64,000 bases of DNA from positions 1,504,581 to 1,568,580 of the forward strand of contig CAJNDT010003779.1 in assembly GCA_905221615.1 (NCBI GenBank), written 5' to 3'. Position numbers and translations under genes: made by a program. Shown here piece by piece: positions 13,501-60,141 of the stretch; the stretch's first letter is position 1; each line of letters begins with the position of its first letter. The notes below the pieces were generated by a model. It ran no database searches. It was not told the DNA's origin and saw only the letters and a program-made list of their open reading frames with translations. The DNA is from Symbiodinium sp. CCMP2592. Taxonomy: Eukaryota; Sar; Dinophyceae; Suessiales; Symbiodiniaceae.

Positions 13501-13511
13501 CGACCGAGCAG

Positions 13512-14235
13512 AAAGCATGTAAATATCGCGCTATAACAAGGGCTAGGGATTTCACACATCTGCTGGCAAAATCTGGCGGAAGTGACCTGTGGTCCAGCAA
13601 AACACCTGTAAATACCGCATGAAAACAAGGGCTAGGGATTTCACACATCTGCTGGCAAAATCTGGCGGAAGTGACCTGTGCTCGAACAAAACACATGTAA
13701 ATACCGCGTGAAGACAAGGACTAGGGATTTCACACATCTGCTGGCAAAATCTGGCGGAAGTGACCTGTGGTCCAGCAAAACACCTGTAAGTACCAATTGA
13801 AAACAAGGGCTAGGGATTTCACACATCTGCTGGCAAAATCTGGCGGAAGTGACCTGTGCTCGAACAAAACACATGTAAATACCGCGTGAAGACAAGGACT
13901 AGGGATTTCCCACATCTGTTGGCAAAATCTGGCGGAAGTGACCTGTGATCCAGCAAAACACCTGTAAATACCGCGCTAAAACAGGGGCTACGGATTTCAC
14001 ACATCTGCTGGCAAAATCTGGCGGAAGTGACCTGTGCCCGAACAAAACACATGTAAATACCGCGTGAAAACAAGGACTAGGGATTTCACACATCTGCTGG
14101 CAGAATCTGGCGGAAGTGACCTGTGATCCAGCAAAACACCTGTAAATACCGCGCTAAAACAGGGGCCAGGGATTTCACACATCTGCTGGCAAAATCTGGC
14201 GGAAGTGACCTGTGGTCCACCAAAACACCTGTAAC
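13512..14235 (+). repeat. 89-bp satellite, eight copies, 178-bp dimer
   Basis: TTCACACATCTGCTGGCAAA recurs at 13551, 13640, 13729, 13818, 13907, 13996, 14085 and 14174, an 89-bp period. Two subtypes alternate (TCCAGCAAAACACCTG and CGAACAAAACACATG) in the first seven copies, giving a 178-bp higher-order unit. Frames of about 60-85 residues across it are artefacts of a period that is not a multiple of three. Confidence 0.97.
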
Positions 14236-14455
14236 TCAGATCCGAAAACCATAGATCGCAAGGGGTGTCACCCTAAGGGTTTTTGTAATAAATATGTTTC
14301 AAAAACACAAATCGCAAGGGGTGTCCCCCTAATTAATTAAGGTTTTGTAAGAACTCCATTACTAGAATCACAGATCGCAATGAGTGTCCCCCTAAAGGCT
14401 TTTTCAACAAATAGGTTCCAAAATCACAAATCGCAAGGGGTGTCACCGCAAGGCA
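14228..14455. repeat. ~70-bp repeat, inverse of 13010-13195
   Basis: Four units of AATCGCAAGGGGTGTC followed by CCCCTAA and GGTTTTTGT. Together with 13010-13195 they flank the 89-bp array as inverted borders. Confidence 0.8.
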
Positions 14456-14459
14456 GGGT

Positions 14460-14760
14460 GGGAGAAGCGGGGGAGAGGCATGGGGTTAAGGGCAGGGGGC
14501 TGGGGCCCTTTTTCGGGCTTGGGCTGGGGTTGGGCAGGGCTGGTAACTTGGAATTCGTGGCTGCGGCTGGGCCACTGGGGCTGGGGTTGGGCAGGGCTGT
14601 TGGCTGAGATTTTGGGGGCGGCTGTACTCCTACTACTCCGACGAGTCCTACTCCACCTCCACCTCCACCTCCACCTCCACCTCGGGTGGGATTGTGGGGG
14701 CCGGGGTTGGGGCTGGGGCTGAGGGCTGGGGCTGGGGGCTGGAACTGGGGGCTCGCGGAT
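14460..14760. repeat. GGGGCTG-rich low-complexity DNA
   Basis: GGGCTGGGGTTGGGC repeats and a CTCCAC run at 14648-14690. It has strong potential for G-quadruplexes on +. No gene is supported. Confidence 0.8.
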
Positions 14761-14764
14761 TATA

Positions 14765-15108
14765 CAGGCTTTCTGCTCGATCAGAGATCACTTCCGCCAG
14801 ATTTTGCCAGCAGATGTGTGAAATCCTTAGCCTTGGTTTTGACGCGGTATTTCAAGCTTTCTGCGTGATCACCGATCACTTCCGTCAGATTTTGCCAGCG
14901 GATGTGTGAAATCCCGAGCCCTTGTTTTAACGCGGTATTTACAGGCTTTCTGCTCGATCACCGATCACTTCCGCCAGATTTTACCAGCGGATGTGTGAAA
15001 TCCCTAGCCCTTGTTTTAACGCGGTATTTACAGGCTTTCTGCTCGATCACGGATCACTTCCGCCAGATTTTACCAGCGCATGTGTGAAATCCCTAGCCCT
15101 TGTTTTGC
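14765..15108 (-). repeat. inverted copies of the 89-bp satellite
   Basis: CTTCCGCCAGATTTTGCCAG at 14791, 14879, 14968 and 15057 is the reverse complement of the array at 13512-14235. Spacings are 88, 89 and 89. Confidence 0.95.
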
Positions 15109-15109
15109 C

Positions 15110-15305
15110 ACGGAAAGCTGCTAAACCCGTGCTCGGTTTTAGTGTGGTATTTACAGCACTTTGACAAGGTCGCAGCCCGATCGCACCAAATTTTGTCACA
15201 CAAAGTTGCTAAACCCCTGCTCGGTTTTAGTGTGGTATTTACAGCACGTTGACAAGGTCGCAGCCCGATCGCACCAAATTTTGTCACGCAAAGTTGCTAA
15301 ACCTC
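15110..15305. repeat. related 88-bp satellite
   Basis: TCGGTTTTAGTGTGGTATTT occurs at 15133 and 15221. The GTATTTACAG core is shared with the 89-bp satellite, suggesting common origin. Confidence 0.85.
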
Positions 15306-15309
15306 TGCT

Positions 15310-15900
15310 CTTCAACTTAGCGCTTTTCGGATTCGGCTGGGGCGGCTCTTTCTTGGTGGCGGCTTCGGGCGGGCTGGGCCTTGTTCTGGAGTTCTGGAAA
15401 AGAGGGTTGGGGCTGGTGTGGGGTGGGAGTCTTAGCAAAGCTGGTGGTTGAGGCTCTGAGGGGAGCGCTGGGCTGGGGCTGCAGGCTGGGGCTGGAGAAC
15501 TGGGCGGGACAAGGCAAGGCACCGGAAAGCAGCCGCGGGTTGGAGGGCAGGGGCAGGGAGCACAGGCAGAGGCAGGGGGCAGGGGGCAGGGGCAGAGAGG
15601 GAGAGCTGGCTGCGGCTGGGGGTGGAGGCCGGTGGGGGCGGGCGGCTGGGACTGGGCAGGCGGGGCAAAGGCAGGGGCAGGGAGCAGGGCCAGAGAGGAG
15701 AGGTGGTTGGGGCTGGGGTGGAGGCTGGCGGGGGCGGGCGGCTGGGGGCTGGGCTGGGGGTAGAGGGCGGGGAGGCGGGCGGCTGGAGCTGGGCTGGCGG
15801 TAAAGGGAAGGGGCAAAAACCGGTGTAGGGGGTGGGGGTGGAGGCTGGTGGGGGCGGGCGGCTGGGGGTCAGGGGGCTGGAGCTAGAGTGGGGGCTGGGT
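15310..15900. repeat. GGGGCTG/GCAGGGGC low-complexity DNA
   Basis: Very G-rich on +. Open frames rich in Gly/Arg (or Pro/Ser on the minus strand) follow the composition. No gene is supported. Confidence 0.8.
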
Positions 15901-15904
15901 GGAG

Positions 15905-18140
15905 GCCACCGACACCTATTTAAATTTTTAAAAATCTTTAAAATCTTTAAAATCTGAAAAGCTTTGTTTTCAAAAATTAAAGATTTTAAAGATTTTAAAA
16001 GCCTTTAAAATCTTTAAAATCTTTAAAATCTGAAAAGCTTGGTTTTCAAAAATTAAAGATTTTAAAAGCCTTTAAAATCTTTAAAATCTTTAAAATCTTT
16101 AAAATGTGAAAAGCTTGGTTTTCAAAAATTAAAGATTTTAAAGATTTTAAAGATTTTTAAAATTTTAAATCGTTAGGTCTGGGCTCCAGGCCACCGACAC
16201 CTATTTAAAATTTTAAAAATCTTTAAAATCTTTAAAATCTTTAAAATCTGAAAAGCTTGGTTTTCAAAAACTAAAGATTTTAAAGATTTTAAAAGCCTTT
16301 AAAATCTTTAAAATCTTTAAAATCTGAAAAGCTTGGTTTTCAAAAATTAAAGATTTTAAAGATTTTTAAAATTTTAAATAGGTGTCGGTGGCCTGGAACC
16401 CAGACCTAACGATTTAAAATTTTAAAAATCTTTAAAACCTTTAAAATCTTTAAAATCTGAAAAGCTTGGTTTTCAAAAATTAAAGATTTTAAAGATTTTA
16501 AAAGCTTTTAAAATCTTTAAAATCTTTAAAATCTGAAAAGCTTGGTTTTCAAAAATTAAAGATTTTAAAGTTTTTAAAGATTTTTAAAATTTTAAATCGT
16601 TAGGTCTGGGCTCCAGGCCACCGACACCCATTTAAAATTTTAAAAATCTTTAAAATCTTTAAAATCTTTAAAATCTGAAAAGCTTGGTTTTCAAAAATTA
16701 AAGATTTTAAAGATTTTAAAAGCCTTTAAAATCTTTAAAATCTTTAAAATCTGAAAAGCTGGTTTTCAAAAATTAAAGATTTTAAAGATTTTAAAGATTT
16801 TTAAAATTTTAAATCGTTAGGTCTGGGCTCCAGGACACCGACACCTATTTAAAATTTTAAAAATCTATAAAATCTATAAAATCTTTAAAATCTTTAAAAT
16901 CTGAAAAGCTTGGTTTTCAAAAATTAAAGATTTTAAAAGCTTTTAAAATCTTTAAAATCTGAAAAGCTTGGTTTTCAAAAATTAAAGATTTTAAAGATTT
17001 TCAAGATTTTTAAAATTTTAAATAGGTGTCGGTGGCCTGGAACCCAGACCTAACGATTTAAAATTTTAAAAATCTTTAAAATCTTTAAAATCTTTAAAAT
17101 CTGAAAAGCTTGGTTTTCAAAAATTAAAGATTTTAAAGATTTTAAAAGCCTTTAAAATCTTTAAAATCTGAAAAGCTTGGTTTTCAAAAATTAAAGATTT
17201 TAAAGATTTTAAAAGATTTTTAAGAGAGTCAGACCTGAAACAACCGTCTTCGGTCAGTAGTGAAAAGGAAAGACGCATCACACTTACGGCGATAAGCGTC
17301 AAGGCAGCATCAGGCTCAGGAATCTTCAGAAAGCCATCGCTGCAGGTGACACACAGAAGCTACAAAATGCACATGAGCTGCAATCGAAGATCGAGAATTA
17401 AGCGGATGTTGTGGCATAAAGACCAACCGCAAGAAATTCTCGTTTGAGAGCTGGGCAACATCGATCACATAACTTCGCATACGACTCTGCCAGATCTGAC
17501 GCTGCTCATCAAATAAGGGACACTCTCGCAACCCATGCAGAAGACTGCAGCTTGGATTGCCACACAAACACATATGCTGCACGAAAGCGTCCCCTGCACG
17601 GTGACGTGCACTGCGCCCATCCGGGAATGGATGATGCCCACCAAAATCTTTAAAAATCTTTAAAATCTGAAAAGCTTGGTTTTCAAAAATTAAAGATTTT
17701 AAAGATTTTTAAAATTTTAAATCGTTAGGTCTGGGCTCCAGGCCACCGGCACCTATTTAAAATTTTAAAAATCTTTAAAACCTTTAAAATCTTTAAAATC
17801 TGAAAAGCTTGGTTTTCAAAAATTAAAGATTTTAAAAGCCTTTAAAATCTTTAAAATCTTTAAAATCTGAAAAGCTTGGTTTTCAAAAATTAAAGATTTT
17901 AAAGATTTTAAAGATTTTTAAAATTTTAAATCGTTAGGTCTGGGCTCCAGGCCACCGACACCTATTTAAAATTTTAAAAATCTTTAAAATCTTTAAAATA
18001 TGAAAAGCTTGGTTTTCAAAAATTAAAGATTTTAAAGATTGCAAAAGCCTTTAAAATCTTTAAAATTTGAAAAGCTTGGTTTTCAAAAATAAAAGATTTT
18101 AAAAGCATCTGAAATCTTTAAAATCCTTAAAATCTGAAAA
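15905..18140. repeat. AT-rich ~215-bp satellite with flipped units
   Basis: Built of TTTAAAATCTTTAAAATC and AAAGCTTGGTTTTCAAAAAT. A GC-richer marker (GGGCTCCAGGCCACCGACAC) occurs at about 16187, 16598, 16814, 17723 and 17932, and in inverse orientation near 16378 and 17018. It is interrupted at 17226-17641 by unrelated sequence. Confidence 0.93.
17226..17641 (-). pseudogene. non-LTR retrotransposon RT C-terminus, decayed
   Basis: Minus strand. The frame 17582-17316 (extending a little upstream) contains MCLCGNPSCSLLHGLRECPL followed by FDEQRQIWQSRM. The C-x-C-G...H-x-L-x-x-C-P pattern is typical of the zinc-knuckle-like end of LINE reverse-transcriptase proteins. The frame stops at TGA after HLQRWLSEDS. 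The polymerase and endonuclease parts are missing and AT-rich satellite flanks both sides, so this is a 5'-truncated relic. The family assignment comes from memory of the motif, not from a search. Confidence 0.6.
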
Positions 18141-18179
18141 GCCTGAATTGATATAGTATTGATAAACAAAGCAAAGCCA

Positions 18180-33672: not shown

Positions 33673-33784
33673 CTAGGATGCCCAGTAATACCCTTATTCC
33701 CTTTTTGTAGTCCTAGGTTCCTTATAAAGTTACCCAATACCAAAAAGAGGGGCCTTTATATTCTTAGGTTACTGGGTATCCTAG
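33673..33784. mobile_element. palindromic element, family J
   Basis: CTAGGATGCCCAGTAATACC and GGTTACTGGGTATCCTAG are inverted ends. It is flanked by a 17-bp direct repeat, TTAAGGAACTGTAGTAT, at 33656-33672 and 33785-33801. The other copies have only 4-bp duplications. Confidence 0.93.
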
Positions 33785-33844
33785 TTAAGGAACTGTAGTA
33801 TGGCTGCCGATGATCCATTGCACTGGGCTTCCCGCAATTTAACC

Positions 33845-35721: not shown

Positions 35722-36078
35722 TTGACTGCAATTGCCACTGACTGGAACTGTTTCTGCGAGATGGTCGTCGCGAAGGCAGGCCCGCATGTTGGCCCTGGGA
35801 GCGCAAATTGCCTTTTTGACCCTGTCGGCGGTGTGTACGTCGGACCTACACCAGGACCACCTCGGCTGCCCTCAGCCCAGCTACTCTCCAGAGGAAGCCA
35901 AACGGATCCTGAAGCAGCAGAAGAGAGCAACCCCGGCCTCGGCCTTTTCCTAGGCTGTGCAGCACCGCCGTGTCATGGAGACCGGAGTGCGCTTGAAAGG
36001 TCACGCAAGCAAGGTGGCTCAGCATCAGAAGAGCGAGCAGAGGACGCAGAGGAATCGGACTCTGATTTCCATATCAGT
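35722..36078 (+). CDS. candidate long exon with acidic tail
   Basis: Open frame with KAGPHVGPGSANCLFDPVGG, then PPRLPSAQLLSRGSQTDPEA, ending SASEERAEDAEESDSDFHIS before a GT (GTGCGCC). A CGAAGGCAG at about 35771-35779 could be the acceptor. The Ser/Glu/Asp-rich C-part looks disordered. A second frame (MLALGAQIAFLTLSAVCTS) from 35786 resembles a signal peptide but stops at 35951-35953. Confidence 0.42.
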
Positions 36079-36249
36079 GTGCGCCAGCGCATTCATTGAG
36101 GAGCAGTGCAGCCTGTTTCGTGCAGGCTCTGCAGAAGACCAGTGCTCAGCGCAGTACTCTTCTCAAGCCCAGCAAAGTTTCTTGAAGTTCTTCGGGTTGT
36201 AGGTGCGACACAGAGATTTCCTTGCTGCGAAGCTTGTTTTCCTTGTCAG

Positions 36250-36525
36250 GTTCGGTGGACCCTTAGGGTGATGAAATCCAAGGGTAAAGGGAGGGACCCT
36301 CAATAAGGACCCCTAGGTATATACCCTTATTATATTATAGCAATTATGTAGCCATTACATAGCCCATTATAGGTAGGGGTCCCCATTAAGGGTCCCTCCT
36401 TTTCCTCTTTGATGAAAGCCAGCAAGATGGAAGTTCGCTCAGACCGGGGCTTTGGAAACGCTGGGTTCGCAAGCCTATGGTTTCGGAGTTTACATGGGCT
36501 AAGGGTTCAGGGATTAGGGGTCTAG
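36250..36525 (+). CDS. candidate exon split by a transposon-like intron
   Basis: Exon 36250-36283, after TTTTCCTTGTCAG, reads VRWTLRVMKSK. Exon 36419-36525 reads ASKMEVRSDRGFGNAGFASL and ends at TAG. The 135-nt intron between them is the element at 36277-36409 plus its duplication. Without the element the DNA reads VRWTLRVMKASKMEVRSDRG, so the insertion adds two residues after splicing and keeps the frame. How this joins the exon at 35722-36078 is unclear. Confidence 0.42.
36277..36409. mobile_element. palindromic element with 8-bp target duplication
   Basis: TGATGAAA at 36269-36276 is repeated at 36410-36417. The ends AAAGGGAGGGACCCTCAATA and AGGGTCCCTCCTTTTCCTCT are inverted over about 40 bp. 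8-bp duplications are typical of hAT-type elements. No transposase. It is the only copy of this family in the window. Confidence 0.93.
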
Positions 36526-36572
36526 GTTTCAGGGGTTTAGGGTTTAGGGCTTGGGATTTTCGGGTGTTAGGT

Positions 36573-36746
36573 TTAGGGTGATGACCGAAACCTCGAAACT
36601 GGCGAAGGCAGCGCTTTCACTGTCCCGCCGTGGCTCGCAATACCCGACTTAGTGGTCCGCAGCTCAGTCCCGACGCGGGGTTTAGGGTTTAGGGTTGAGG
36701 GGTCTACCAGGACCCCCCAACGGCCCTCTACAGAACCCTTCTGATA
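36573..36746 (-). CDS. candidate terminal exon, 57 residues
   Basis: Minus strand, after GAGCAGTAG at the end of the family O element. Reads YQKGSVEGRWGVLVDPSTLN then PRVGTELRTTKSGIASHGGT and ends in TAA. The second half is strongly GC-ending. The exon passes through a short CCCTAAA stretch, which is unusual. No matching upstream exon was found. Confidence 0.33.
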   Translation of the reverse strand, partial: YQKGSVEGRWGVLVDPSTLNPKPRVGTELRTTKSGIASHGGTVKALPSPVSRFRSSP

Positions 36747-36856
36747 CTACTGCTCATGGACAAAATCCTGCATTACCCATTATAAGGAAAATACCATAGT
36801 TCCCATAGTTTAGAGTCCTTAGGGTCATGCAGGATTTTGTCCATCAACAGTAGCAA
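36747..36856. mobile_element. palindromic element, family O
   Basis: TACTGCTCATGGACAAAATC pairs with GATTTTGTCCATCAACAGTA. The second copy is at 45622-45735. Confidence 0.88.
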
Positions 36857-45477: not shown

Positions 45478-45750
45478 TTAGAAAGTAAAAGCCCTATCCC
45501 TACAGAGCAGGTCCGCTGCGACTCTGCCATATCTCCTTTTCTTCTTGACGCAGTTGGACGCTGTGCCGGGGCCCCGGCTCGCGGCAGCAGTCTCCCCGGG
45601 GCTCCAAATAGCCCAAAGTAGGTCCTACTGCTGATGGTATAAATCCTGCATGGAGCATAAGAAGGAATATACCATAATTCCCATAGTTTAGGGTCATTAT
45701 GATAATGCAGGATTTATATCATCAACTGTAGTTATATAGACTTTAGAGCC
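45478..45750 (-). CDS. candidate gene end with family O intron
   Basis: Minus strand. A 24-nt exon (45750-45727, GSKVYITT), bounded by CGACTTAG and GTTGATG, joins in phase to exon 45624-45478 reading DLLWAIWSPGETAAASRGPG then TASNCVKKKRRYGRVAADLL and TAA. The 102-nt intron is exactly the family O element, whose end supplies CAGTAG. The main exon is strongly GC-ending. A second frame over it (CREPGPRHSVQLRQEEKEIW) is also open. Confidence 0.42.
45625..45735. mobile_element. palindromic element, family O, possible intron
   Basis: CTACTGCTGATGGTATAAATC pairs with GATTTATATCATCAACTGTAG. CCATAATTCCCATAGTTTAG inside is shared with 36747-36856. Confidence 0.9.
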
Positions 45751-54632: not shown

Positions 54633-54744
54633 CTAGGATGCCCAGTAGTACCCTTATTCCCTTTTTGTAGTCCTAGGTTCCTTATACAGTTACCCAATAC
54701 CAAAAAGAGAGGCCTTTTTTTTCTTAGGTTACTGGGTATCCTAG
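54633..54744. mobile_element. palindromic element, family J
   Basis: CTAGGATGCCCAGTAGTACC and GTTACTGGGTATCCTAG ends. TTTG on both sides (54629-54632 and 54745-54748). Over 90 percent identical to 59965 and 33673. Confidence 0.95.
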
Positions 54745-54819
54745 TTTGGGTTGCTATAAGGGTTTGTTTCAAGGGTTCTACACGGAATCTTGGGTTCTGT
54801 TTAGGGCCTTGAAGGTTGC

Positions 54820-59964: not shown

Positions 59965-60076
59965 CTAGGATGCCCAGTAGTACCCTTATTCCCTTTTTGT
60001 AGTCCTGGGTTCCTTATAAAGTTACCCAATACGAAAAAGAGAGGCCTTTTTATTCCTACGTTACTGGGTATCCTAG
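59965..60076. mobile_element. palindromic element, family J
   Basis: CTAGGATGCCCAGTAGTACC and ACGTTACTGGGTATCCTAG ends, flanked by TTTA at 59961-59964 and 60077-60080. Confidence 0.95.
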
Positions 60077-60141
60077 TTTATGGTTTGCACAAGGAAATTA
60101 TCATAAGGAGCCGCAAAACATGCAGTTGTTTTGTAATCCAG

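Follow-up and report, generated by a model that had tools for sequence, protein, structure and literature searches.

The window analysed in this study is a stretch of 64,000 nucleotides from the genome of Symbiodinium sp. CCMP2592. The sequence TGATGAAA is present in it at positions 36269-36276, with a second copy at 36410-36417, and the two copies bracket an imperfect palindrome. The arms of the palindrome (left, 36276-36321; right, 36368-36413; plus strand) are 46 nt long and 80% complementary to one another, and the stability of its computed RNA fold exceeded that of 200 out of 200 shuffled sequences (z=-4.6). In the initial annotation, which was made from the letters of the sequence, this arrangement was described as a 133-bp insertion flanked by an 8-bp target duplication, the right-hand copy of which supplied a splice acceptor, i.e. 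as the birth of an intron by transposition.

The surroundings of the palindrome are rich in repeats. Degenerate TTTAGGG arrays occur on both strands throughout the window (2926-63569), and a 14-mer of that repeat, allowing no more than one mismatch, gave 122 matches in the window vs 0.19 expected. Satellite blocks are situated at 13505-15310 and 15903-18142, with units of approximately 89 bp and AT-rich units of 67/209 bp; the G+C content of positions 16001-18000 is 0.28. Two further dispersed repeats were observed, one represented by two copies (36747-36853 and 45625-45731, 79% identical, the latter itself palindromic) and the other by three (33673-33786, 54633-54746 and 59965-60078, 94-96% identical). 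The window gave no matches when scanned for Rfam families and tRNAs, nor did searches for spliced-leader relics in it or searches against a phage collection and viral contigs. For the ORF at 17319-17708, a structure-database search returned five matches, with a best E value of 0.35.

The genome (1,098,105,373 bases in 5383 contigs) was searched with the palindromic element. There were 1953 first-look candidates, 40 of which were scored, and among those scored were at least 39 other near full-length copies with identities of 87-91%. These 39 genomic copies and the copy in the window make up the 40 rows of the alignment to which the following counts refer. It is apparent from that alignment that the element is conserved at its left end, TCCAAGGGTA, as well as at its right end, CCCCTTTGA; its terminal inverted repeats are of the TCMAAGGGKAAAAGGAGGGACCC type. 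The three bases of the TGA at 36410-36412 are kept in 39, 39 and 40 of the 40 rows, respectively, whereas position 36413 is occupied by T in 21 rows, A in nine, G in seven and C in three. Because conservation extends to 36412 and is lost at 36413, the TGA represents the right end of the element, and the target site duplication is therefore 5 bp in length, TGAAA, with its left copy at 36272-36276 and its right copy at 36413-36417. The host TGA at 36269-36271 is by chance identical to the last three bases of the element, and it is this identity that is the source of the apparent 8 bp. Thus, while TGATGAAA does occur twice, as had been stated, a duplication of 8 bp is ruled out, since part of its right-hand copy is conserved family sequence. 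The element itself, as delimited by conservation among the 40 rows, occupies positions 36277-36412 of the plus strand and is 136 bp long, rather than 133 bp. A duplication of 11 bp containing a single mismatch (TGATGAAATCC / TGATGAAAGCC) was considered before the other copies were known, and was dropped.

When three copies with common flanks were merged, 38 distinct sites, including that of the window copy, were available for comparison. A 5-bp duplication was exact at 22 of these sites, as compared with a mean of 1.24 for shuffled pairings, and it was present with one mismatch at nine more. Duplications of 2-4 and 6-12 bp showed no enrichment, with from zero to two exact cases for each length. 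The targets of the family are TTNAA-like, represented here by TGAAA. The family consensus is approximately 132 bp in length. Identity to the consensus of the 40 rows is 93.9% for the window copy and averages 97.9% for the others, and the former is therefore not among the youngest. At 132-136 bp, and with stop codons inside it in all three plus-strand frames, the element does not encode a transposase of its own. Like MITEs, the family consists of short elements in high copy number that end in inverted repeats, generate target duplications of fixed length and have no long reading frame; particular to it are the 5 bp of the duplication and the TTNAA-like target.

Several other observations were made on the family. 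Genome-wide, NNNNAG was found directly after an exact right end in 956 cases, as against none for a reversed-pattern control; the figure is a count, not a frequency. The duplication was exact in 11 of 17 parsed rows (two of which represent the same copy) from 30 such loci, but no weight was given to this rough check because the loci had been chosen for the AG. Three copies of the family, L013, L017 and L043, have longer flanking direct repeats of approximately 12-15 bp, although a 12-bp repeat is exact only in L013. Paired right ends with a spacing of 115-117 bp were found on the same strand at G000:C86:195269 and 195384, and on opposite strands at G000:C291:681473 and 681590; these pairs are nested or rearranged copies.

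The splice-like reading of the site was reproduced by translation. With the insertion omitted, the flanks read RVMKASKMEV, which includes the VMKASKM of the initial annotation, and removal of 36284-36418 leaves the frame intact to give RVMKSKASKMEV (VMKSKASKM), two codons longer, as had also been claimed. The putative donor, GT at 36284-36285 on the plus strand, lies inside the element. The putative acceptor, AG at 36417-36418 on the same strand, derives its A from the right duplication, of which it is the final base, and its G from the next base of the host, and is preceded by a pyrimidine-rich stretch at the right end of the element.

The significance of that reading depends on whether the flanking DNA is an exon, as the initial annotation implied. 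With the insertion omitted, there is an open frame of 94 codons at 36100-36522 (plus strand). Its period-3 signal, 1.29, is matched by 26% of random segments, and its GC3, 0.48, is the lowest value of the three codon positions. In a large protein collection, there was no candidate that had three words in common with the 94-aa peptide of the empty site. No Pfam domain was found in the claimed exon frame, and a six-frame Pfam scan of 18501-58500, which was run without a positive control, returned nothing at E<=0.01. The last 16-17 codons of the frame are located inside a dispersed, degenerate telomere-like repeat at 36473-36579 (plus strand), for which 70 rows were scored of 385 genome candidates. 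Two short partial matches aside, the left flank occurs once in the genome, and no genome matches were obtained over 36413-36472; for these reasons, an empty-site paralogue was not found. One locus, L050, is a partial genomic relative of the region of 36219-36243 and of sequence upstream, with gaps of 36 nt and 1 nt, and in a two-sequence search its translation matched the claimed frame with an E value of 0.005 and another frame with an E value of 0.001. No homologue, Pfam domain or coding periodicity was detected for the 94-codon frame, and its designation as an exon was dropped for lack of coding evidence. The copy in the window apparently interrupts no coding sequence, a statement that represents absence of evidence at the sensitivity of these searches rather than proof. 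The intron reading is unsupported at this site because no homology, domain or periodicity was detected in the frame, and because an in-frame reading is to be expected by chance in an appreciable fraction of insertions (see below).

Some coding potential may exist further upstream. A 138-aa frame upstream of the insertion has mild period-3, matched by 4% of random segments, and GC3 in that stretch would be highest in the frame neighbouring the 138-aa one. On account of these two observations, a real exon may be situated upstream, and might have ended before the insertion, which is a guess. The 138-aa sequence had 56 candidates in the large protein collection, none of them with E<=1. Between 35700 and 35990 the G+C content rises to 0.58-0.61, with period-3, and within that region the second plus-strand frame at 35787-35953 is GC-rich, would have a GC3 of 0.67 and has a stop codon at 35951; a gene located upstream of the insertion may terminate there. 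These features lend some weight to the possibility that the copy lies within an existing intron or an untranslated region of a gene encoded elsewhere in the window, and that it is removed with that intron or is silent. The putative exons nearby have neither a Pfam nor a protein match, however, and we regard such a setting as conceivable but improbable.

It was also of interest to consider the family as a whole, as its ends might have been shaped by splicing even if the copy studied here was not. If that were so, the family would be one of introners, copies of which become in-frame introns upon landing in exons, with most of them, including that of the window, residing outside exons. The GT corresponding to 36284-36285 is kept in all 40 rows, and the right arm has no GT at the mirrored position. 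At 22 of 38 sites the base after the right duplication is G, vs 27% expected after AA (p=6e-5), and C precedes the left duplication at 12 of 38, a lower figure (Fisher p=0.037). AG, composed of the fifth base of the duplication and the base after it, is found at 17 of the 38 sites vs eight of 38 for its mirror image on the left (Fisher p=0.0497), and excision to the first AG is in frame at 24 of 38. An asymmetric choice of targets by the transposase would, of course, yield an equal excess of AG.

The surroundings of the 38 sites argue against such a role. Telomere-like heptamers lie within 200 bp at 34 of them; the corresponding figures are 80% for random 400-bp pieces of the window, 131 of 180 for pieces around 30 other copies and 13 of 54 for 400-bp pieces of loci for genes of the peridinin-chlorophyll protein (PCP). 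This suggests that the flanks resemble non-coding background. Frames open across the empty site for 60 nt were observed at 18 of 38 sites (18 and 21 in two frame-shifted controls; 16.7 for shuffled pairings). For 90 nt the number was 12 (controls nine and nine; shuffled 7.0), for 120 nt it was seven (five and three; 2.7), for 150 nt three (three and zero; 1.0), and for 180 nt none (two and zero; 0.2). Relative to shuffled pairings these numbers represent a mild excess, one that is largely seen in the frame-shifted controls as well. When the ten longest plus-strand empty-site peptides of the copies were compared with Pfam, none gave a match above the cut-off, and one gave a sub-threshold match with an E value of 0.18.

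Introns bounded by direct repeats do occur elsewhere in this genome. The PCP family gave 143 matches in it, as compared with none in 14 control genomes, which identifies the host as a peridinin dinoflagellate. In one PCP gene, L069, two copies of the 15-bp repeat CATATGCGGACAGGA, separated by 62 nt, flank an insertion that neither L068, a close paralogue, nor the intronless L063 possesses. The insertion, which is intron-like and 62 nt long (165-241 of L069; G000:C5001:417000-417900), contains an inner inverted repeat, noted by eye (AGTGGCtAGGA / TCCTGCCACT). To judge from the sequences, it is a candidate for intron gain with an empty site, and as such it is a better candidate than 36250-36525. 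It supports the existence of direct-repeat-bounded introns in the genome, although its sequence differs from that of the element described here. The second intron of L068 and L069 is bounded by a AGGCCATC-type repeat, and if it is read as GC-AG, the frame seen in the intronless gene would be regained.

Known introners include ones that have terminal inverted repeats together with target duplications, and passages of one report describe some that bring one splice site and co-opt the other, and some that add codons (PMC9860276). Introner elements have been described in Amoebophrya and Suessiales, according to the portions of the literature consulted (PMC7789003, PMC10522408, PMC11114475), and for Polarella glacialis a figure of 12,253 recent introner introns is cited in a section of a review (PMC11453091). 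The introners of Symbiodinium microadriaticum, as portrayed in parts of PMC9860276, have in common with the present family a dinoflagellate host, inverted terminal repeats, a target duplication and a similar order of length. They differ from it in having duplications of 4 bp instead of 5 bp, and in carrying the 3′ splice site while co-opting the 5′ one, roles that are putatively reversed here. Other introners, in the same partial accounts, have their own GT, a borrowed AG and extra in-frame codons, as was proposed for the copy in the window, but those elements sit in genes, whereas the flanks of the window copy give no coding signal. The elements of Amoebophrya, a relative among the dinoflagellates, have inverted repeats of 8-20 nt and direct repeats of 3-5 nt, and, in contrast to the window copy, they are described in passages of the report on them as RNA-supported introns with non-canonical boundaries (PMC7789003). 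Since introners with such features have been described, at least in the passages cited (PMC9860276), the mechanism put forward in the initial annotation, even if right, would be of a known kind.

The conserved GT, the excess of AG, the in-frame excisions, the introns of the PCP genes and the dinoflagellate introners reported in parts of the literature (PMC7789003, PMC9860276, PMC10522408, PMC11453091) are consistent with an introner family. In view of the resemblance of the flanks to non-coding background, the heptamers, the behaviour of the frame-shifted controls and the ten peptides lacking a Pfam family, it is nevertheless unlikely that the family is one. The more specific proposal, that this is an undescribed introner in the making, which retains a GT donor and a pyrimidine tract of its own, favours targets where an AG is completed immediately after the 5-bp TTNAA-like duplication and adds exactly two codons on each landing in an exon, is likewise unlikely. 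If it were true, the copies, at least 1000 in one genome, would be potential seeds of introns.

The frequency with which such a reading would arise by chance was estimated. When the satellite region was left aside, stop-to-stop frames with a minimum length of 94 codons covered 30.9% of the positions of the window if either strand was allowed, and 22.7% if the plus strand alone was considered. In simulated insertions (n=1500), excision from GT to AG was in frame with at least 96 open codons in 7.9% of cases for a given strand and 13.3% for either strand; for 60 open codons the values were 22% and 38%, respectively. When the donor was kept constant and the acceptor was taken to be the first AG encountered within 12 nt, 558 of 3000 simulations were in frame, 110 of the 3000 with at least 94 open codons. 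Simulated random insertions give an in-frame reading frequently enough for coincidence to suffice at 36250-36525, and coincidence is the most likely source of the resemblance to a newborn intron. A window so rich in repeats would offer such cases without any intron. That the copy is a spliceosomal intron of a coding gene, with GTAAAG as donor, an acceptor made of the target and the next base and two codons added, is thus very improbable: its arithmetic is correct, the 94-codon frame is open, a pyrimidine-rich stretch precedes the AG and partial accounts of introners offer precedents for one carried and one co-opted splice site and for added codons (PMC9860276), but no homology or domain was detected in the flanks, the frame has no notable period-3 and runs out in a dispersed repeat, and the expectation by chance is 8-13%.

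Taken together, the data indicate that positions 36277-36412 are very probably one copy of a high-copy, non-autonomous DNA transposon with terminal inverted repeats (MITE), situated in apparently non-coding DNA rich in telomere repeats. The ends of the element, the length of its duplication, its copy number and the lack of a coding signal in its flanks are matters of observation. The copy would have been inserted into a TTNAA-like target, in this case TGAAA, by way of a cut staggered by 5 bp, most likely through the action of a transposase encoded elsewhere, and would then have drifted to approximately 94% of the consensus. Its splice-like pair would consist of the GT of the left end and the pyrimidine-rich right end, together with an AG to which the target and the base after it each contribute, and splicing is presumably absent at this site. 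Of the birth of an intron by transposition, then, the insertion of an element and the duplication of its target hold, and the status of that element as an intron is unsupported for the copy in the window and unlikely for the family.

A tempting misreading is thereby corrected, in which three chance bases made a duplication of 5 bp seem to be one of 8 bp, and a MITE whose surroundings are apparently non-coding mimicked a newborn intron. If members of the family were spliced where they reside in exons, they would provide many natural insertions, both inside and outside genes, in which the conversion of a transposon to an intron could be tested.
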